From Candidatus Sulfotelmatobacter sp. (GTDB lineage: Bacteria; Acidobacteriota; Terriglobia; Terriglobales; Acidobacteriaceae): DNA of 10,742 bases. Numbering within the stretch: the first letter of the stretch is position 1; the number at the start of each line of letters is the position of its first letter. Of this stretch, positions 954 through 10,742 are shown piece by piece. The translations under genes and the position numbers were made by a program. The DNA lies in the NCBI GenBank assembly GCA_030037575.1, contig JASHRB010000475.1, positions 1 to 10,742 on the forward strand. The letters run 5' to 3'. The notes under the pieces are model-generated. The model was not told the DNA's origin, did no database searches, and worked only from the letters and a program-made list of their open reading frames with translations.

Positions 954-2459
954 CTATCTGAACTCGATCACGGCCAAGCCGTGAACGGGAAGGGTAATGC
1001 TCAGACCGCCGTTCCTGATCTCAACTTCTTCCGGCGCCGCAAGTTCGCTGGCTTTCCGCAATTGCCTGATCTGCCCCTGGGTGGGGAATCGCGGGCTGCC
1101 CATCGCTTGGTAGGCAGAATGAAAATCGCCCTGGTCGCTACCGACTCGCGAAATCACAGCTTGCTTGGTATCGGTGTTTTTCAGTTGAAGCCTCATGGTC
1201 TTGGACGAACCTGACGCCCCCGGGGGAGCGTAGTTCCACAACGCCAGAACCAAACTTCCATCGCTCCGGCGCGTGAGCAGTGCGGAATCGGAATCGAGCT
1301 GGATGCGTTCGCTTCCCAGCTGGTGCAGCAGTTTGAAAGCGTTGAACGCGGGTTTGGCTATTCCGTCTTCCGCAATGAGACCAAAACCGCCATAAAAAGG
1401 CGTTTTCACCACACCCTGTTCTTCGAACACGTCAGAGAAAGTCCAGTAGGACATCGAATCGACCAGGCCGTCACACTGGCGAATCGTGTCGGCTAGCCAT
1501 GGCCCCATATAGTCCGAATCGGTCACCTCAGTCTCGTTCTTATAGCTCGCGTTGAACTCGCTCCACATCAGCGGCAGATTCGGCATTGCCGAAGACTTGA
1601 TTTCCTGGTGAACCTTGCTTACGGCACGGCAAACCATGCGATCGCGGGGAATGTTTTCCTGCGTGTGGAAGACGTCTTCCGCGGTGTCGTTCGCATAGAC
1701 ATGCGTAGAAACAAAATCGAGCGGAATGCGCTTTTGCTGGCAATGGCCGATCATCTCGCCCACCCAGGCAGCCTGGGCGGTGGCTGGCCCTCCCACGCGA
1801 AGCCGCGGGCTCACCTTCTTAATGGCAAGCGCGGTGTGATCGTAAAGATCCCAGTACGTTTGTTGCCGGGGCTGGCCTGCCCAGAAGTCGAGATTGGGTT
1901 CGTTCCAGACTTCGAAATACCACTGCGAGACTTCATCGATGCCATAGCGATCGACGAGGTGCTCGACGAAGGCAGCAATCAACGCATCCCAACGATTCCA
2001 ATCTTTGGGAGGAGAAATATTGGGTCGGTACCAGAACGCTTGATGCGCGTCGCTGGCAGCCAGCTTACTGGGCATGAAGCTAAGTTCTACGTAAGGCCGT
2101 ACGCCATTGGCCAGCAGGCCGTCATAAATCTGATCGACATAGGAAAAGTTATAAACCGGACTGGCATTCGCATCTTCTTCATAAACTCCGACCTCGTCAT
2201 CGAGAACGGCGTGGAAACGGATGTAGCTGAAGCCGGTAATCTGCTTTACCGAGCGCAGGTCGCTGCGATAATCGTCTCGCAGGCTCAAGATTGCGCGCCC
2301 CGAGCCGAACATCTGTTCCCAAAAATGCGGAAAGGGATGCCGAGGCGCGTCAGCGCGGATGACCATCACATCAGGGGCCGCACCGATTTGAGCCGCAAGT
2401 CCGCCAGGACAGGGAAACCGCGAGAATAGGAGCGCAAGAATGAAGATCCAGCATCGCAT
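954..2459 (-). CDS. Secreted GH39-type glycoside hydrolase (beta-xylosidase/PslG-like fold)
   Basis: A 501-residue protein. The start at 2459 is chosen because the protein then begins with a clear signal peptide (MRCWIFILALLFSRF..., probable cleavage near LAAQ); an upstream in-frame ATG at 2603 would overlap the preceding gene by about 100 bases and hide this leader. A weak CAGG lies about 6 bases before the start. The body is a TIM-barrel GH39 domain. The acid/base glutamate is Glu187 in EVWNEPN and the probable nucleophile is Glu301 in WSEFN. The barrel is followed by a beta-rich C-terminal part (about 390-501) typical of GH39. The family includes beta-xylosidases, alpha-L-iduronidases and PslG, a GH39 enzyme in the Pseudomonas Psl exopolysaccharide cluster. 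It is the last gene of the three-gene minus-strand operon, 37 bases after the glycosyltransferase, which suggests a role in trimming or turning over the polymer made there (inference). The substrate is unknown. No terminator hairpin is seen after the stop. Confidence 0.9.
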   Translation of the reverse strand: MRCWIFILALLFSRFPCPGGLAAQIGAAPDVMVIRADAPRHPFPHFWEQMFGSGRAILSLRDDYRSDLRSVKQITGFSYIRFHAVLDDEVGVYEEDANASPVYNFSYVDQIYDGLLANGVRPYVELSFMPSKLAASDAHQAFWYRPNISPPKDWNRWDALIAAFVEHLVDRYGIDEVSQWYFEVWNEPNLDFWAGQPRQQTYWDLYDHTALAIKKVSPRLRVGGPATAQAAWVGEMIGHCQQKRIPLDFVSTHVYANDTAEDVFHTQENIPRDRMVCRAVSKVHQEIKSSAMPNLPLMWSEFNASYKNETEVTDSDYMGPWLADTIRQCDGLVDSMSYWTFSDVFEEQGVVKTPFYGGFGLIAEDGIAKPAFNAFKLLHQLGSERIQLDSDSALLTRRSDGSLVLALWNYAPPGASGSSKTMRLQLKNTDTKQAVISRVGSDQGDFHSAYQAMGSPRFPTQGQIRQLRKASELAAPEEVEIRNGGLSITLPVHGLAVIEFR

Positions 2460-2496: not shown

Positions 2497-5400
2497 TTAC
2501 GCCGCGCTGTTGCGGGATTTTGGCAACCGCGTGGGCTTTTCCTGCAGCAGTAGCTCGGTTGCCTGTACTCGCGGATGGCTGTGAAACCAACGCTCGACAA
2601 CATCCTGATGCAGGAAATTTGCGATCGCTAGCAACGTCATCCCCTGATGGTGCGCCATCCAACAACGAACCGGCACAAAGCGGCGAAAACGAGAGTGGGA
2701 GCGGCTGCGTTGCGGGTTGAAATCCACCGCGTCATAAAATCCGTAGGTGCCCAGTGCGCGCTTGCGCTGCAACTTGCGCAGGTTGCCGAGCGTGGCTGCG
2801 GAATCGACCGGAAGGGCAAGGAAGGTCGCATAGGGCGCAACCACGGGGCCATCGACATCAACTTTGTGTATCGCCAGTCGGGGCACGCCAAAAGCGTGGT
2901 ATTCATAATTGCCCTTTTCATCGAGCTTGAAACAGGCAGATTCCGAAATGCCCCAGGGAATGCCCATCTTCTCGGCATATGCGCGCTGCGCCCGCACCGC
3001 CGCGACCGCCGCGCGCTCAAGAAGCGTATTGGGGTAGATTCGCATCCACAGCGGCGGCATCATGTACTCGAACATGGTTCCCGTCCAGGAGAGCAAGCCG
3101 GCTACCCCATTCTCTATAATTTGCACTCGCCCCAGCTGGAACCAGCTTTCCTGCGGGATGTCATCTTTCGCGATGGCGACAAAGGAAGCCATGCGCGCTT
3201 CGCTGGCCAGCAGGTCGTAGCAGGCATTGTGCAGGTGGCGTTTCTCAACTTCGATCCCAATCGAAAGCAAGTTTCTGCTGCGGTTGAGCAGGATGCCAAA
3301 GTCCATTTCATCTGCCAGCACACTGGCCTGATTGGCGATATTTTTAAGATCTTCAATCAGCCGAACCACGTGGGCGCGCGCATCCGGCAAAAGCGCCAGC
3401 AGTTGCTGATAAAGGGCTTTACTGGGCCCCGAGGAAACTGCTTCGACCGCCTTGAGCCGGGTGGCCAGACCATCCATGTAGGCAGGCATGCGCTTGAGAG
3501 AGGGAAGATCGTCGGATCGGCCCGGCTGATGAACGGCCGGGTCATTCTTTAGCCCGGCAAACTCCGGCAGCAGCCAGGGCGCATAGATCTGGGCCGTCCG
3601 GCCAATCTGACTCAGCCGCTCCTCCGCCTGCTTCCGGAACCATTCGACCTCGGCGGCAAATTTCGGCTTGCCGGCGGTCCGGCGGATGTCTTTGAGAGCG
3701 GCCTCGGGAATATCGAGCAGATATGGCAACCATTGCTGTCCTTCGGCGCTGCGTCGGATTGCGGAGAACTTGCGCCGCGGCATCCCCCGCAGGCTTGTCA
3801 GAATGTACAAGTGGTCGAGGAACCCATCTGTCAGTTCATGCTGGAGCAAGGGCTGCTCGATCAGATCCAGGCACCCTCGTTGCAAAGTCCAGAGCGATGC
3901 CACAAGGTTTCCGTTATCTACACTGGAAACGAACGCGGGAGTGAGCGGAGCCAGCGTTCGCGTGTCGTACCAGTTGAGCAGGTGACCGCGATGGCGCTGC
4001 AAGTGAGAGACCGTATCCAGCGTTCGCAAGCTCTGCTGGGCAAACTCGGGCAGCGTGAGATAGCCGAATTCGCACGCGACCTGGCGCGCGTTGAGAAGAA
4101 ATCCCAGATTGGTTGTGGAGACGCGGGCGGCCACTTTCATGCCCTCTTCCACCACATTGTCGGGAATTAGCCAGTGGTGTTCTTCGTTGCTGAACTCGGC
4201 GAAGTATCGCCAGGTGCGAAGCGCGCTCTGCCGCAGCAGCCATTGACGTTTTTCCGCGAGTTGTTTGTGTGGGGACCGGGGCGGACGATTCAGCCACATG
4301 GAGATCGGTTTGCTGCACGCCCAGAACAGCAGTATCGGCAGTGCCGCGGGAAGGGCTCGTTGATGCACGCCCCAGACCAGAAATAACAACGCCAGAGCGA
4401 GCAGCGGAGTGCAATTCAGGTACAGATCGAGAACCGTACGCTTGTCATCGGCAAGTTCCGCCTGCGCCGCGGTCTCCCACTGCAACAATCTCCGCCGGGT
4501 GATCAGACGCCGCACGATGGTCCGGACCATCGCGTCCAGCGACAACAGAGCCTGGTGCGCCAGAAATGTGATGGTCAGCCAATCGGCGATACTTGCGTCG
4601 GCAAAAGCATTCAATCCGTCGCCCAGATTCGCCGGCCTGGCGAGCACCAGGGCTCTCCCCAGATCGAATCCGAGCTGTACCAGCGCCGGCAGGAAGATGA
4701 TCGCGACCGTGGCCAGAGTCCAGGCCTCCGGCTTTCCCGGCAGGCAAAGCCAGCCCAGCAGGAAGAGCACAAACAACGCGGGCTCCACCAGGCTGCGGCG
4801 CAAATTATCAAAAATCTTCCATCGCGAAACCACCGACAACGGATTCGGCACTTTTTGCCCTGACTCGTCCGGCACCAGCGGGCGCAACCACTCGGCAATT
4901 TGCCAATCGCCCCGTAACCAGCGATGCTTCCGCCGATTGTGGGCGCTGTAATGCGAAGGGTAATCTTCGATGACCTCGATATCGCTGACCAGGCCGGCGC
5001 GAGCGTAGGCGCCCTCCACCAGGTCATGGCTGAGCAGCGCATTGCGGGGGAAGCGGCGATCGAGCACGCGGCGCAGCGCGTCTACCTCGTAAATCCCCTT
5101 GCCAACAAAAATGCCTTCCCCGTAAAGATCCTGATAAACATCCGACGCCGCACGGCTGTAGATATCGATTCCCGTCTGTCCCGAATAAATGCTCGCCAGC
5201 CGGGAACGAGCCGAGCTCTGGACGCTCACTCCTACCCGCGGTTGCAAAATACCGTAGCCGGTGACCACCACCCCGAGATGGGGATCGATAATCGCCTGAT
5301 TGAGGGGATGAGCCAGCGCCCCCACCATGCGCTTGGCCGAGTCCCGCGGCAATTCGGTGTCGGAATCGAGTGTGATCACAAATCGAACCCGGGGAAAAAG

Positions 5401-6984
5401 CGATAAGTCGCCCACCTTCACGGGGAAGCTGTCGAACTGTCCCCGGAGAAGATTGTTGAGGTCTATCAGTTTGCCCCGCTTGCGCTCCCATCCCATCCAC
5501 AGCCGCTCGCGCGGGTTGTAACTGGGATGCCGATGCAAAAGGAAGAACGATCCCATCTCCTCGCCGGCGTACTTGTTGTTCAACCCCCGAATCAGATCGC
5601 CAGCCAAACCAACCAGCGGATTGCCGGCCGGCGGTTTTTCGGGAGAGTCGGGCAGATCGGTGAGCATCACAAAATGCAGATTCGGATCGTGATTGCCCAG
5701 GAAGCGAACTTCAAGGTCGTCAACCAGCTTGTGCACCTGTTGCTCATCGAGAAGCAGGGTGGGAATGGCCACCAGGGTTACGCAGTCGTTGGGCAGGCCT
5801 TCAGAAAAATCCAGCTTGGGCAAAATCTGCGCCGCCAGCACAACCGTCACGAAGAAATTAACCATCTGAACCGCGCTCTGTGAACTGGGCAGGAGCACGG
5901 CCAGGGCGGAAAGCAGGATCAGCCCGAGCGAAGTCGAGGCATCGGTCAACAGAATCACGACCCCTAGAACGATCAGCAGCGTGAGCGCCGCAATACCGGG
6001 CAGATAAAACTCGTCGGGATAAGTGCGAATCAAGGCGGGTATTCGTTCGGCCATGGAAGGGTGATAGCCGATCCGCTGCTCGAGCGCGGGAACGCCTTCG
6101 GCCACCAGATACGTGCCAATGTGAGAACGGCGCAAAGTCGAACGGGGATCGTCAGCGCGATTTTTTTGCGCCTCACGTGCCAACGCGAGCGCGGCTTGGG
6201 CGACCTCCATCTCGCTGCAATCGGAACGGCCGGCCAGCTTGACCACTTTTTTTCGGTACAGCTCCCGGCTGTCATAATCCATACGCGGATACGCTCCCGC
6301 AGGATCCTCGCGCAGGACACGATCGAAGGGGATCAGTGGTTCGAGCACCAGCTTCCAGTTGGTTTCTTTGATCTCGCGAAGGCTGAGCGCCATCTTTCCA
6401 ACGCCGTGGATGTGCGCCGGATCCTGCAGCAGTTGGCGGCCGCGCTGGGCGATGTTTTCGAGCAGGATGAGGTTGAGCGCCGGAACCAGCATCCAAAGCT
6501 CGGCTTTGTCGAGAACCGTGGTGTCCTCAAAGGCCTGAACGTAATCGGTAAAACTTGCCTGGCTAAACTCAAACTCGACCGCAGTGAGGTAGTCCTCAGC
6601 AATGGCGGCCACCCGGGGAATCACATCTCCGCTGAGGGTACGCACCTGCGGTAACTTCTCTACGCGCGTGAAAGTTTCGCAAGTTTCCTCCATTTCCGAC
6701 TGAATCAGAAGAAAGTTTTCGTGCAGCAAGCGGACGTCATCGCTGCCCGTCTTTGTGGGGGAATTGCCGAGAGCATCGGTCAAGGGCCGGGAGGCGCGAT
6801 GAAGCGTCCGACAACGTGCGTGAAAGGACCGCATCTCCGTCTCTCCCGGCAGCCACGCCAAGGCGCGGGAGAGCTTCGAGGCGCTCGAGCGCACGCCGCA
6901 ATGTTGCTCCGCGTCTTCGGCCCCACGGGTGTGAATTTCTTCGTTTTCCTTGCCCACTAGCTCCAGATGACCACTTTGCATCAT
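2497..6984 (-). CDS. Cyclic beta-1,2-glucan synthase-like protein: GT84 plus GH189/PF10091-type domain, no GH94 domain
   Basis: A 1495-residue inner-membrane glycosyltransferase related to NdvB/ChvB/Cgs, which polymerise glucose from UDP-glucose into beta-1,2-glucan and cyclise it. Domains in order: a charged, poorly conserved N-terminus (1-70); the NdvB-type cytoplasmic N-terminal region (about 75-325); hydrophobic segments near 329-347, 352-367 and 371-388; a GT-A glycosyltransferase core (about 400-700) with Asp540-Ser-Asp542 as the DXD motif and RWLRGDW (688-694) as the QxxRW-type motif; more membrane segments near 734-750, 755-772, 802-820 and 854-893; then the middle cyclisation-type domain (about 940-1480) with HLLNWYDTRT (1001-1010), VSSVDNGNL (1019-1027), PWGISES (1343-1349) and AHHQGM (1444-1449). 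Known family members are about 2800 residues and continue into a GH94 phosphorylase. This one ends at a TAA (2499-2497) right after QATELLLQE, and the next 37 bases lead into another gene. It is operonic with the exporter upstream and the GH39 gene downstream. Confidence 0.92.
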   Translation of the reverse strand: MMQSGHLELVGKENEEIHTRGAEDAEQHCGVRSSASKLSRALAWLPGETEMRSFHARCRTLHRASRPLTDALGNSPTKTGSDDVRLLHENFLLIQSEMEETCETFTRVEKLPQVRTLSGDVIPRVAAIAEDYLTAVEFEFSQASFTDYVQAFEDTTVLDKAELWMLVPALNLILLENIAQRGRQLLQDPAHIHGVGKMALSLREIKETNWKLVLEPLIPFDRVLREDPAGAYPRMDYDSRELYRKKVVKLAGRSDCSEMEVAQAALALAREAQKNRADDPRSTLRRSHIGTYLVAEGVPALEQRIGYHPSMAERIPALIRTYPDEFYLPGIAALTLLIVLGVVILLTDASTSLGLILLSALAVLLPSSQSAVQMVNFFVTVVLAAQILPKLDFSEGLPNDCVTLVAIPTLLLDEQQVHKLVDDLEVRFLGNHDPNLHFVMLTDLPDSPEKPPAGNPLVGLAGDLIRGLNNKYAGEEMGSFFLLHRHPSYNPRERLWMGWERKRGKLIDLNNLLRGQFDSFPVKVGDLSLFPRVRFVITLDSDTELPRDSAKRMVGALAHPLNQAIIDPHLGVVVTGYGILQPRVGVSVQSSARSRLASIYSGQTGIDIYSRAASDVYQDLYGEGIFVGKGIYEVDALRRVLDRRFPRNALLSHDLVEGAYARAGLVSDIEVIEDYPSHYSAHNRRKHRWLRGDWQIAEWLRPLVPDESGQKVPNPLSVVSRWKIFDNLRRSLVEPALFVLFLLGWLCLPGKPEAWTLATVAIIFLPALVQLGFDLGRALVLARPANLGDGLNAFADASIADWLTITFLAHQALLSLDAMVRTIVRRLITRRRLLQWETAAQAELADDKRTVLDLYLNCTPLLALALLFLVWGVHQRALPAALPILLFWACSKPISMWLNRPPRSPHKQLAEKRQWLLRQSALRTWRYFAEFSNEEHHWLIPDNVVEEGMKVAARVSTTNLGFLLNARQVACEFGYLTLPEFAQQSLRTLDTVSHLQRHRGHLLNWYDTRTLAPLTPAFVSSVDNGNLVASLWTLQRGCLDLIEQPLLQHELTDGFLDHLYILTSLRGMPRRKFSAIRRSAEGQQWLPYLLDIPEAALKDIRRTAGKPKFAAEVEWFRKQAEERLSQIGRTAQIYAPWLLPEFAGLKNDPAVHQPGRSDDLPSLKRMPAYMDGLATRLKAVEAVSSGPSKALYQQLLALLPDARAHVVRLIEDLKNIANQASVLADEMDFGILLNRSRNLLSIGIEVEKRHLHNACYDLLASEARMASFVAIAKDDIPQESWFQLGRVQIIENGVAGLLSWTGTMFEYMMPPLWMRIYPNTLLERAAVAAVRAQRAYAEKMGIPWGISESACFKLDEKGNYEYHAFGVPRLAIHKVDVDGPVVAPYATFLALPVDSAATLGNLRKLQRKRALGTYGFYDAVDFNPQRSRSHSRFRRFVPVRCWMAHHQGMTLLAIANFLHQDVVERWFHSHPRVQATELLLQEKPTRLPKSRNSAA

Positions 6985-6998
6985 TATTTTTCTTTCTA
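6985..6998 (-). promoter_or_regulatory. Ribosome binding site of the synthase overlapping the exporter stop codon
   Basis: On the minus strand the exporter's TAG stop (6998-6996) is itself the first part of the purine-rich TAGAAAGAAAAATA that precedes the synthase ATG at 6984. The Shine-Dalgarno-like AGAAAG thus starts inside the stop codon of the upstream gene. This arrangement favours translational coupling and supports 6984 as the synthase start. A second in-frame ATG follows directly (6981) and could be used instead. Confidence 0.55.
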
Positions 6999-8816
6999 AC
7001 GATAGTTCGATGCCTGCATTTCAAACATTTCCGCGTATCGCCCGCCCAAGCTGGCCAGTTGTTCGTGGGTTCCTTCCTCCATAATCTTGCCATTCTCCAG
7101 GACTAGGATGCGGTCGGCTGAACGGACGGTTGAGAACCGGTGCGAAATAAACAGCGCCATCTTTGCCGCCGTGAGTTCGGAAAAGCGATGGAAGACTTCA
7201 AATTCGCTGCGTGCGTCCAGTGAGGCAGTCGGCTCGTCGAGAATGAGCAATTGCGCATCGCGCAGGTAAGCCCGAGCCAGCGCAACCTTCTGCCACTCGC
7301 CCCCGGAAAGATCGACTCCCTGCTCAAAGCGGCGACCCAGCATCTGGTCGTATCCGAGCGCGAGCCGGCCGATGGTTTGGTCGGCCAGGCTCTTATGAGC
7401 AGCAGCTTTCACCAGCGGCAGATTGTTCCGCTCTTCAATCCGGCCGACCGCGATGTTCTCGCGCGCGGTCATCTCGTAGCGCATGAAATCCTGAAATATC
7501 ACCCCGATCTCGCGATGCAGATCATCCAGGTCGTACTCGCGCAGGTCGACTCCGTCCAGCAGGATTCCCCCCTCGGTGGGATCGTAAAGGCGAGTCATCA
7601 GCTTCACGATGGTGGTTTTTCCCTGGCCGTTTTCCCCGATCAGCGCGAGCCGTTCGTCAGTGTGCAGGGTGAAGCTTATACCATCGAGCACCAGCCGCGG
7701 GTTTCCGGGATACCGGAAGGACACATTGCGAAACTCGATTCCGCGCCGGATCGGCCGCGGTACGGGCCGGGCGTTCGGTCCGGATCGGATCGTCGGCCGC
7801 ATTTCGAAGAATGCCAGCAAGTCGGTAAGGAATAAAGCTTGGTCGCCAATGCCGGCGAGGGTCGAGAAAATTTGTTCGATGTTGCTGCTTGCTTGTTGAA
7901 TCGCTCCCGCCAAAAACGTCAGGGTGCCAATCGTCAGCACGCCAGCGATCGTCCGCCAAATCACGAACGCATATGCCGAGTAGTAACCCATGGTGCCGAG
8001 GGTGGAGAGCAGCGACCCCGCGATCAGCTTCCGCCTGGATAGGGCTACGTTTTCATCGTAGATTTCATCTGAAATCCGGGTGAAGCGGTCGCGTAAGAAG
8101 TTGCGCAGTCCGAAAAGCTTCAGTTCTTTCGCCGCTTCCTTGCTGCCAGCGAGAATGCGCAGATAATCGAGCTGCCGGCGCATCGGCGTCTGGCGGAAAT
8201 TCTTGGCGTAGCCCAGGAAAGCAAAATGACTCTCACCCAGAAAAGCCGGAACCACGCCGGCGATTAGCAGCAGCATCAGCCAGGGAGAGAACAGCATGAT
8301 CGAGACCGACAGCGTGATGGTGGTGATCGCCTGTTGCACCAGCCGGCCCATGGCCTGAATCATCACCAGCCGGTCGGTAGCCTGGACCCTGGCCCGCTCC
8401 AGCCGGTCATAAAAGACCGGATCTTCGTAGGCAATCAGATCAAGGCTGGCCGCGTGATTCATCACCCGGATGCTCACATGCCGGGTGTACTTGTCGGCCA
8501 GCAATGAATCCGAGTAATCGATGGTCCGCGTCACCATGCTGCCCAAGACGGCGAGCGAGAACTCTGCCACCACCAGCCACCAGAAGCCGGGATTCACCGG
8601 CTGGTGATGCGAGACGGAATGCACAATGCGATCGATGATGAGCTTGGTGATCCAAAGAAGCGCGAGCGGCAAGAACGAGGAGAATACCCGTGCCCCCACT
8701 CCGAACAGTACAACTCCGCGGCCCGACTCCCACATGATTTGCAGAACAGCCGGAACGTTACGCAGAGCAGAGATACGCTCTTGCCATCCTTTCCAGTAAC
8801 TTTCTCGATCCGCCAT
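6996..8816 (-). CDS. ABC exporter, fused membrane and ATPase domains (candidate glucan exporter)
   Basis: A 606-residue type I exporter half-transporter. The N-terminal transmembrane domain (about 30-320) shows hydrophobic stretches near 34-60, 77-97, 160-195 and 263-305. The ATPase domain (about 355-600) has Walker A GENGQGKT (394-401), the Q-loop Gln442, the signature LSGGE (503-507), Walker B LLILDEP (523-529) and the switch His559, so it should be active as a homodimer or with a partner. A good Shine-Dalgarno, AGGA (8827-8824), sits 7 bases before the ATG. It is the first gene of the minus-strand operon, and the synthase starts 11 bases after it. In rhizobia and Brucella, cyclic beta-1,2-glucan is exported by the ABC protein NdvA/ChvA/Cgt, of similar size. 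The position here suggests the same job (inference), although the sequence looks more like the general MdlB/NisT-type exporter group than NdvA, so another substrate is possible. Confidence 0.93.
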   Translation of the reverse strand: MADRESYWKGWQERISALRNVPAVLQIMWESGRGVVLFGVGARVFSSFLPLALLWITKLIIDRIVHSVSHHQPVNPGFWWLVVAEFSLAVLGSMVTRTIDYSDSLLADKYTRHVSIRVMNHAASLDLIAYEDPVFYDRLERARVQATDRLVMIQAMGRLVQQAITTITLSVSIMLFSPWLMLLLIAGVVPAFLGESHFAFLGYAKNFRQTPMRRQLDYLRILAGSKEAAKELKLFGLRNFLRDRFTRISDEIYDENVALSRRKLIAGSLLSTLGTMGYYSAYAFVIWRTIAGVLTIGTLTFLAGAIQQASSNIEQIFSTLAGIGDQALFLTDLLAFFEMRPTIRSGPNARPVPRPIRRGIEFRNVSFRYPGNPRLVLDGISFTLHTDERLALIGENGQGKTTIVKLMTRLYDPTEGGILLDGVDLREYDLDDLHREIGVIFQDFMRYEMTARENIAVGRIEERNNLPLVKAAAHKSLADQTIGRLALGYDQMLGRRFEQGVDLSGGEWQKVALARAYLRDAQLLILDEPTASLDARSEFEVFHRFSELTAAKMALFISHRFSTVRSADRILVLENGKIMEEGTHEQLASLGGRYAEMFEMQASNYR

Positions 8817-9182: not shown

Positions 9183-10742
9183 GTGCGCTTGGGCTTGTGC
9201 TTTTTCTGCCTTTTGTTTCTGATTGCGAACCCCTGTGGTGCGGTAACCGCCAGCGATTACTACAACCACGTTATCTTCGATAACAGCCTTACCTCCGATT
9301 ACTACTACTACAGCGGCGGCCGGGCGGTCTTTCCCAGCACACTCCAACTGCTCTCCGGAGCGGTGCCGGTCGAGAAAAAGAACTTCTTTACTCCGCCCAA
9401 TGCCTTGCGGCTGCAATGGCGCTCGGTATCCGGAGGGGCCTGGGAGGCCGAAGTGCGTGTGGTCAGCATGCGCAATCGCCCCACGAACTTTCTCGGCGAC
9501 ACGCTTTATATGTGGTGTTATTCGCCGCAGGAGATTCCGGCGGCAAATTTACCTGCCCTCCAGTTGGAGGACGAAGAGCACAATTTTACGGCGCCATTAA
9601 AGCTGAATGGCATCGTCGATGATCTGCCCGCCAAGCGATGGATTCAGATCCGTCTTCCGCTTAGCGAATTTCAAACCGCTTCGATCCATCCCTTCGAAGC
9701 CCGCGAGCTGCACAGCATTTATTTCAGCCAAAGCGCGGCGGATAACACCCCGCGCACGTTAATCATCGACGAGATCAAGATCGATGATCGCGGCGTCGCT
9801 TCGCCGGTGGCCCGGGAAATCAGAAAGGCCCCGCGTGCTCCGCAGAACGTCGAAGCCAAAGGCTACGACCGGCACGTCGATCTCAGTTGGGATCCGGTTT
9901 CCGGTCCTGATCTACAGAGCTATGTGGTCTATCGGTCGATGGGAAAGCAACGCTTTCAGCCCATAGGCATTCAGAGCGCGGACATTACTCGTTACACCGA
10001 CTTCATCGGAACACCCGCTGTAAAGGCGTCGTACCGTGTCAAAGCCGTCGACCGCTCCTATCGACAGTCCTTGTTTTCCTCCGCGGCTACGGCCTCCACA
10101 AGAGAACTCTCCGACGACGAACTGTTGACCATGGTGCAGGAAGCGTGCTTTCGCTATTACTGGGAAGGCGCCCATCCCGTCTCGGGAACAACCCTCGAAA
10201 ACATTCCGGGCGACGACCGGATTGTTGCGACCGGCGCCACCGGCTTTGGCATTATGGCGCTGGTGGTTGGGGTCGATCGCGGCTTCATCACGCGGCAGCA
10301 GGGAATCGAGCGCATGGAGAAGATTCTTGATTTCCTCGAAAAAGCCCCGCGCTATCACGGCGCATGGTCTCATTTCATGAACGGCTATTCGGCCGAAACC
10401 ATGCTGGTGTTCGGCATGTTCGATAACGGCGGAGATCTGGTGGAAACATCTTTCTTAATGGAAGGGCTGCTGGCCGCACGCCAATACTTCAAAGGCGAGA
10501 GTGAAGCCGAGAAGAGCATCTATCAGAGAATCACCAATCTTTGGCAGACGGTCGAGTGGGATTGGTACCGGCATTCTGCCGACGACCGCGCCTTGCTGTG
10601 GCATTGGTCGCCGCAGTGGTCGTGGTACATCGACCATCGGCTCACCGGATTCAACGAGACGATGATCACGTACTTGCTGGCCATTGCATCGCCCACCCAC
10701 GGCATCCCGGCCGACCTTTATTACACGGGTTGGGCCGGTCAA
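9183..10742 (+). CDS. Secreted multidomain GH144-like (PF10091) hydrolase with jelly-roll-like and FN3 domains, 3' end outside window
   Basis: The frame is open from GTG 9183 to the window end (520 residues). No in-frame ATG lies nearby upstream; the GTG is preceded by GGGG six bases away and directly begins a signal peptide (RLGLCFFCLLFLIANPCGA, cleavage near residues 20-23). Residues about 25-210 form a beta-rich, probably jelly-roll carbohydrate-binding-like domain ending in LIIDEIKIDD. Residues about 216-306 are an FN3 domain (VDLSWDPVSG, YVVYRS, YRVKAVD). From about 310 the PF10091/GH144-like barrel begins (FRYYWEG, TGATGFGIMAL, WSHFMNG). Asp418 and Glu421 in GDLVETSF and Glu492 in GFNETM sit where I recall the GH144 endo-beta-1,2-glucanase CpSGL carrying its key acidic residues. 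ASPTHGI follows. The gene is transcribed away from the synthase operon. Its product is probably extracytoplasmic and acts on a glucan, likely beta-1,2-linked (inference). The start choice is moderately sure. Confidence 0.85.
   Translation, partial: MRLGLCFFCLLFLIANPCGAVTASDYYNHVIFDNSLTSDYYYYSGGRAVFPSTLQLLSGAVPVEKKNFFTPPNALRLQWRSVSGGAWEAEVRVVSMRNRPTNFLGDTLYMWCYSPQEIPAANLPALQLEDEEHNFTAPLKLNGIVDDLPAKRWIQIRLPLSEFQTASIHPFEARELHSIYFSQSAADNTPRTLIIDEIKIDDRGVASPVAREIRKAPRAPQNVEAKGYDRHVDLSWDPVSGPDLQSYVVYRSMGKQRFQPIGIQSADITRYTDFIGTPAVKASYRVKAVDRSYRQSLFSSAATASTRELSDDELLTMVQEACFRYYWEGAHPVSGTTLENIPGDDRIVATGATGFGIMALVVGVDRGFITRQQGIERMEKILDFLEKAPRYHGAWSHFMNGYSAETMLVFGMFDNGGDLVETSFLMEGLLAARQYFKGESEAEKSIYQRITNLWQTVEWDWYRHSADDRALLWHWSPQWSWYIDHRLTGFNETMITYLLAIASPTHGIPADLYYTGWAGQ

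Follow-up and report, generated by a model that had tools for sequence, protein, structure and literature searches.

The window analysed here is a whole contig of 10,742 nucleotides from an assembly of Candidatus Sulfotelmatobacter sp. (GCA_030037575.1, contig JASHRB010000475.1). It carries the gene of a cyclic beta-1,2-glucan synthase (2497..6984, minus strand) that lacks the C-terminal GH94 phosphorylase half. The protein belongs to a single branch of short synthases, and 11 bases upstream of its gene lies that of an ATP-binding cassette (ABC) exporter of 606 aa (6996..8816, minus strand), found by domain, locus and genome searches to be its obligate partner. Short synthase and exporter form a two-gene unit, a feature that is new here. 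The reading we favour, with a probability of roughly two in three, is that the short enzyme primes, elongates and cyclises its glucan through the GH189 domain alone, without phosphorolytic trimming, and that larger or more varied rings leave the cell by the dedicated exporter. Cyclic glucan synthases are described as three regions ending in GH94 (PMC11842490) or as a fusion of GT84 and GH94 (PMC3960220), and one account states that a phosphorylase active-site residue is conserved in the known homologues (PMC10901819), a statement that the short clade contradicts. The short form departs from the three-part definition in one tested feature and otherwise probably works like the rest. Full-text literature searches, whose coverage leaves out most subscription journals, returned no paper on natural GH94-free synthases.

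A synthase that ends after its cyclisation domain

The synthase reading frame starts with ATG, encodes 1495 aa and is free of internal stops. A first-pass annotation, made from the sequence alone, had assigned it an NdvB/Cgs-type architecture with an N-terminal region, a GT84 core and a cyclisation domain, and comparison with solved structures (phmmer) confirms this. The protein matches AtCgs of A. tumefaciens (8rf0) with 749 bits over the N-terminal, GT84 and cyclase parts, in a best stretch of query residues 195-1070 and a second one of 1211-1486, and the cyclisation domain of T. italicus (TiCGS, 8wy1) with 374 bits. Pfam places PF10091 at residues 1259-1471, and no NCBIfam model matches the protein. 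The GH94 half had also been called missing, and it is: Pfam finds no GH94 match at E<=0.01, and only 9 residues separate the last position aligned to the AtCgs cyclase part from the synthase C-terminus. The GH94 half of AtCgs is reported to start beyond a boundary at residue 1536 (PMC10901819). The stop had been correctly placed at residue 1495, but the ending had been misread as QEKPTR; the protein continues to QEKPTRLPKSRNSAA.

Structure-match alignments combined with published numbering allow the functional residues to be compared one by one. In the membrane/GT84 core (residues 390-760; 4705..5817, minus strand), D443, D540/D542, D654, R688, R501 and R691 are equivalent to D527, D624/D626, D739, R773, R586 and R776 of AtCgs. 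Tyr609 (codon 5158..5160, minus strand) aligns with AtCgs Y694, the published autoglycosylated residue that serves as primer, and glucosylation of Y609 is predicted. In the GH189 cyclisation domain (residues 906-1486; 2527..4269, minus strand), E1262 (acid/base), E1306 and E1348 (nucleophile) are equivalent to E1356, E1400 and E1442 of TiCGS, and H1445, H1446, W1005 and Y1362 to H1536, H1537, W1109 and Y1456. The score of 374 bits to 8wy1, together with the catalytic residues in place, identifies this domain as GH189 by similarity. All 15 published functional residues checked, the primer tyrosine included, are identical in 59/59 short and 48/48 long proteins (107/107 rows). The short forms thus keep the residues that serve to initiate, elongate and cyclise the glucan, and only the phosphorylase is gone.

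The protein thus stands close to two well-studied systems and differs from each in a defined way. The N-terminal, GT84 and cyclase parts of AtCgs (8rf0, 8rf9) align with it, and the primer tyrosine and GT84 residues are conserved; however, AtCgs has a GH94/RFL half, and reportedly loses function without it, whereas the window protein has none. TiCGS, the founder of GH189, shares the catalytic Glu pair, E1400, both His residues, W1109 and Y1456, but it was studied as an isolated domain cut out of its synthase.

Two further correlates of the reduction were considered. The variable 4-helix insert of GH189 might have been relaxed in the short forms through the loss of a docking partner; this is rejected, as the long forms are about as variable (mean pair identity 0.26 in the short against 0.24 in the long). 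The strict loss of an N-terminal segment of ~70 residues together with GH94 is only partly true. At the position of this segment (window residues 180-195), 59/59 short proteins have 6-30 residues and 41/48 long proteins about 60-87, but the other 7/48 long rows have 14-22 and are also without the segment.

Short synthases as a stable clade

The absence of GH94 had been read as a stable reduced form rather than a recent break, with close homologues expected to have a consistent length near 1500 residues. Among 2091 database matches, the best 120 include 119 of 1439-1509 residues and one of 1259, in a search that scored 7994 candidates and limited length to 0.55-1.75 times the query, thereby mostly excluding full-length synthases. 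When a divergent short relative is the query, 119 of the 120 matches listed have 1392-1529 residues and one has 1162; the named sources include Bryobacteraceae or Bryobacterales, one Blastocatellia and one 'Rhodospirillales' assembly. The protein from this last assembly (P0136) is a short form of 1475 residues that was either transferred out of the Acidobacteriota or sits on a misbinned contig.

Genome-by-genome samples covered Acidobacteriota, Pseudomonadota and Verrucomicrobiota. A synthase match is present in 181/399 genomes of the same class, and the frames among the matches listed are mainly of ~1300-1630 and ~2700-3190 residues; some fall between and are taken for genes cut by contig ends, although not each was checked. 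In the wider sample of the phylum Acidobacteriota, 65/247 genomes matched. The Pseudomonadota sample (38/299 genomes matched) yields 37 long frames (2362-3023 residues) and one trivial match. The Verrucomicrobiota sample (24/240) yields 19 long frames (2437-2997), three weak unrelated matches and two fragments: in one, a frame of 1453 residues, similarity extends as far as query residue 1259, and the other is a gene divided between two contigs. Named genome contigs contain at least 594 matching stretches; in the best 80, which were analysed, every short form whose 3' end is in view belongs to Acidobacteriota, and the remaining sequences either have GH94 or are truncated ahead of it.

In a FastTree phylogeny of 107 proteins (59 short, 48 with GH94), limited to frames with a closed 5' end and, where the 3' end is missing, to those with a GH94 match, the state changes only once, on a branch with support 100. 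The short relatives (1316-1606 residues) are all found to one side of it, and the nearest named relative of the window synthase comes from a Candidatus Sulfotelmatobacter assembly (Acidobacteriota). Eight of the 48 long proteins lack their 3' end and break off within GH94, and FastTree flagged a single long-branch join, between the long forms L101 and L151. The 59 short rows all end 0-36 residues past the column of window residue 1486, and the shared end point is therefore not due to chance. The tree is unrooted; because long forms span many phyla, loss of GH94 from a long form is a simpler reading than its fusion onto a short ancestor.

A separate gene for the phosphorylase had been proposed as a point to check. 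The source assembly (4.25 Mb) has no match to PF17167 (GH94), which at 82% completeness and in 751 contigs is alone no proof of absence. No GH94 gene occurs in any of the 29 same-genus genomes with a synthase, of which 10 are at least 95% complete; the sole same-genus match (83 bits, G017) is in a genome where the synthase was not found. With none in its own genome or in these 29, GH94 on a separate gene is rejected. Length, single branch and the absence of GH94 from the 29 same-genus genomes thus bear out the stable reduced form first suggested. Close homologues that all carry GH94, which were named as evidence to the contrary, are the opposite of what is found. A broken or misassembled gene is hardly conceivable. 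The assembly is indeed fragmented and 82% complete, but the frame is open, the active sites are conserved and the same end is found in 59/59 relatives, including that of Terriglobus roseus DSM 18391 (L130), whose genome is complete; an assembly error or frameshift is ruled out by relatives that end at the same place.

An obligate ABC exporter of a distinct subfamily

The ABC gene, overlooked in the first-pass annotation, is probably the key to the working of the reduced form. A script classed 73 loci as short; 68 of these have the upstream gene in view, and this ABC gene lies directly upstream on the same strand in 64/68. In one of the remaining loci (L112) the ABC gene was located directly upstream by tblastn, and the other three (L161, L173, L180) belong to other phyla and reach the contig end short of the GH94 position, so that their class is not assignable. 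With L112 added and these three excluded, an ABC gene of one subfamily lies directly upstream in 65/65 usable short loci, a count that includes same or near-same pairs (L073/L106, L077/L107, L084/L126) and loci cut at the 3' end (L109, L120, L125, L135). In L117 the ABC gene is split into two frames. Directly upstream of long synthases, this ABC gene is found in 0/49 loci with the upstream gene in view.

The association extends to whole genomes. An ABC match at E<=1e-150 is present in 29/61 relatives: 29/31 with a short-type synthase (several of these being fragments classed by identity), 0/3 with a long one and 0/27 without a synthase. The two misses (G006 and G010) retain only the 3' part of the synthase gene.

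Three genomes show other arrangements. The sole long synthase examined with a related ABC (56%) nearby has it a few genes downstream (L096, genome G112), possibly an intermediate arrangement. A complete genome from outside the class (G552) has a short form of 1424 residues beside the ABC and a GH94 form of 2844 residues elsewhere without it, and is a natural paired comparison of both forms in one cell. Another genome (G427, loci L071 and L194) combines a short synthase with ABC and another synthase, truncated by a contig end, that extends into GH94.

The window ABC does not fall within the Cgt/ChvA/NdvA family of glucan exporters. It scores 222.7 bits against NF010178 (cut-off 733) and 177.1 against TIGR01192 (cut-off 585.4), below the NCBIfam cut-offs, and ranks nearer to MsbA models. 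Like Cgt, ChvA and NdvA, it would act as a glucan exporter beside a synthase, a role that is inferred for the window ABC, but it is far below the model cut-offs of that family. The obligate association with a distinct exporter points to joint evolution of size control and export.

A separate branch and a distinct exporter subfamily would also suit a product other than cyclic beta-1,2-glucan, of different linkage or a decorated polymer, to which GH189 and ABC would have adapted. This is very unlikely, given that the active-site and substrate-contact residues (TiCGS W1109/Y1456) are unchanged and that relatives of beta-1,2-glucanases occur as neighbours.

Ring formation, ring size and neighbouring genes

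In the favoured reading, GT84 would glucosylate its own tyrosine, Y609, and extend the chain from UDP-glucose, and GH189 would free the ring through intramolecular transglycosylation. Ring size would depend on the geometry of GH189 (minimum about 17) and on the kinetics of chain growth, with no trimming by GH94. Rings above the usual 17-25, or a wider spread of sizes, are therefore expected, and their export would fall to the ABC partner, which belongs to a different subfamily from Cgt/NdvA. The domains, the conserved residues, the absence of GH94, the single branch and the linkage to the ABC gene are observed and speak for this reading, as do the glucanase-clan neighbours; the reaction, the size of the rings and the substrate of the exporter are inferred. 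Published work on related enzymes is consistent with several of these steps. The isolated GH189 domain of TiCGS is reported to convert linear glucan on its own into rings with a degree of polymerization of 17-26 (PMC10834661). A synthase truncated in the phosphorylase domain (Cgstr) and placed in E. coli with its own exporter gives larger rings, mostly retained in the cell (PMC11071196). Cgstr resembles the window protein in having GT84 and the cyclase without a full phosphorylase domain; however, Cgstr was made in the laboratory and its product is not released by its own exporter, whereas the window protein occurs naturally beside a different exporter. In AtCgs, the phosphorylase active site is described as dispensable and the whole C-terminal part as required, and this part is proposed by the authors to set a first length limit (PMC10901819).

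Several points weigh against this reading. AtCgs without its C-terminal half is reported to lose function in a growth assay (PMC10901819), and GH189 may therefore need a scaffold supplied from elsewhere, possibly by the ABC or through changes to the short enzyme itself. As the GH189 domain of TiCGS alone gives rings of 17-26, those of the short enzyme need not exceed normal size. The association between ABC and short synthase has a Fisher p=2e-15, which ignores shared ancestry, and the synthase and ABC tree distances correlate with r=0.92 over 57 loci, again with shared ancestry ignored and as plain co-inheritance would give likewise. Moreover, the linkage speaks for co-function and not for a particular substrate, and the product of the short synthases is predicted throughout.

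A linear, or mostly linear, beta-1,2-glucan would result if GH189, without the GH94/RFL surface, transferred between chains or released them. The AtCgs authors' proposal that the chain is positioned for cyclisation by the C-terminal part, whose removal abolishes function, points in this direction, as do the linear products that GH189 alone yields from short substrates (PMC10834661). However, the isolated domain does form rings in the same report, the phosphorylase-truncated synthase still gives cyclic glucan in E. coli (PMC11071196), and the GH189 residues are conserved in 59/59 short forms, which makes a linear product unlikely.

Returning to cyclisation by GH189, it is possible, if doubtful, that the exporter has taken over the role of GH94, accepting the ring or the growing chain and fixing its size, and so gives rise to a class of large rings that Cgt-type exporters cannot carry. 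If true, acidobacteria would have large cyclic beta-1,2-glucans as a class of their own. The evidence on whether the GH94 part is dispensable conflicts, since its removal is reported to abolish the function of AtCgs and a truncated synthase to give bigger rings. A large natural clade that lacks GH94 and keeps its catalytic residues offers a ready test of what controls ring size, and the two-gene unit a defined system for making larger cyclic glucans. Cyclic beta-1,2-glucans are thereby predicted in soil Acidobacteriota, on which literature searches found no study.

Downstream of the synthase, open reading frame and Pfam analysis places a gene for a GH39 family protein (954..2459, minus strand; frame listed as 954-2603, with the start at 2459 chosen). 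The gap of 37 bases originally given between the two genes holds if GH39 starts at the Met at 2459, but not for the mechanical frame from 2603, which overlaps the synthase. GH39 genes occur in 14/73 short and 0/51 long loci (flank lengths differ), and are frequent, not obligate.

Two genes encode PF10091 proteins. One, with its 5' end outside the contig (1..918, plus strand), is related to GH144: its best solved relative is XcSGL (XCC2207, 8xul; E 1e-55), followed by CpSGL (5gzh/5gzk; E 1e-33). This similarity places it with GH144, with a putative activity, as the N-terminal part lies outside the contig; its being cut by the contig end also sets it apart from XcSGL. The second gene (9183..10742, plus strand; Pfam) lies beyond the ABC gene and is likewise cut by a contig end, with 34 family residues matched. 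Glucanase-clan genes are found in 30/73 short and 0/51 long loci (flank lengths differ), and again are not obligate.

This distribution of glucanase-clan and GH39 genes, as well as the relationship of the 1..918 gene to XcSGL, could indicate that hydrolase neighbours (the GH144-like protein, the PF10091 protein at 9183 and GH39) replace GH94 and set the size of the glucan after export. Such a role is quite unlikely: the genes are near under half of the short loci, and an endo-hydrolase opens rings, which fits turnover better than sizing. The glucanase-clan neighbours support a beta-1,2-glucan as the product of the locus and its local turnover.
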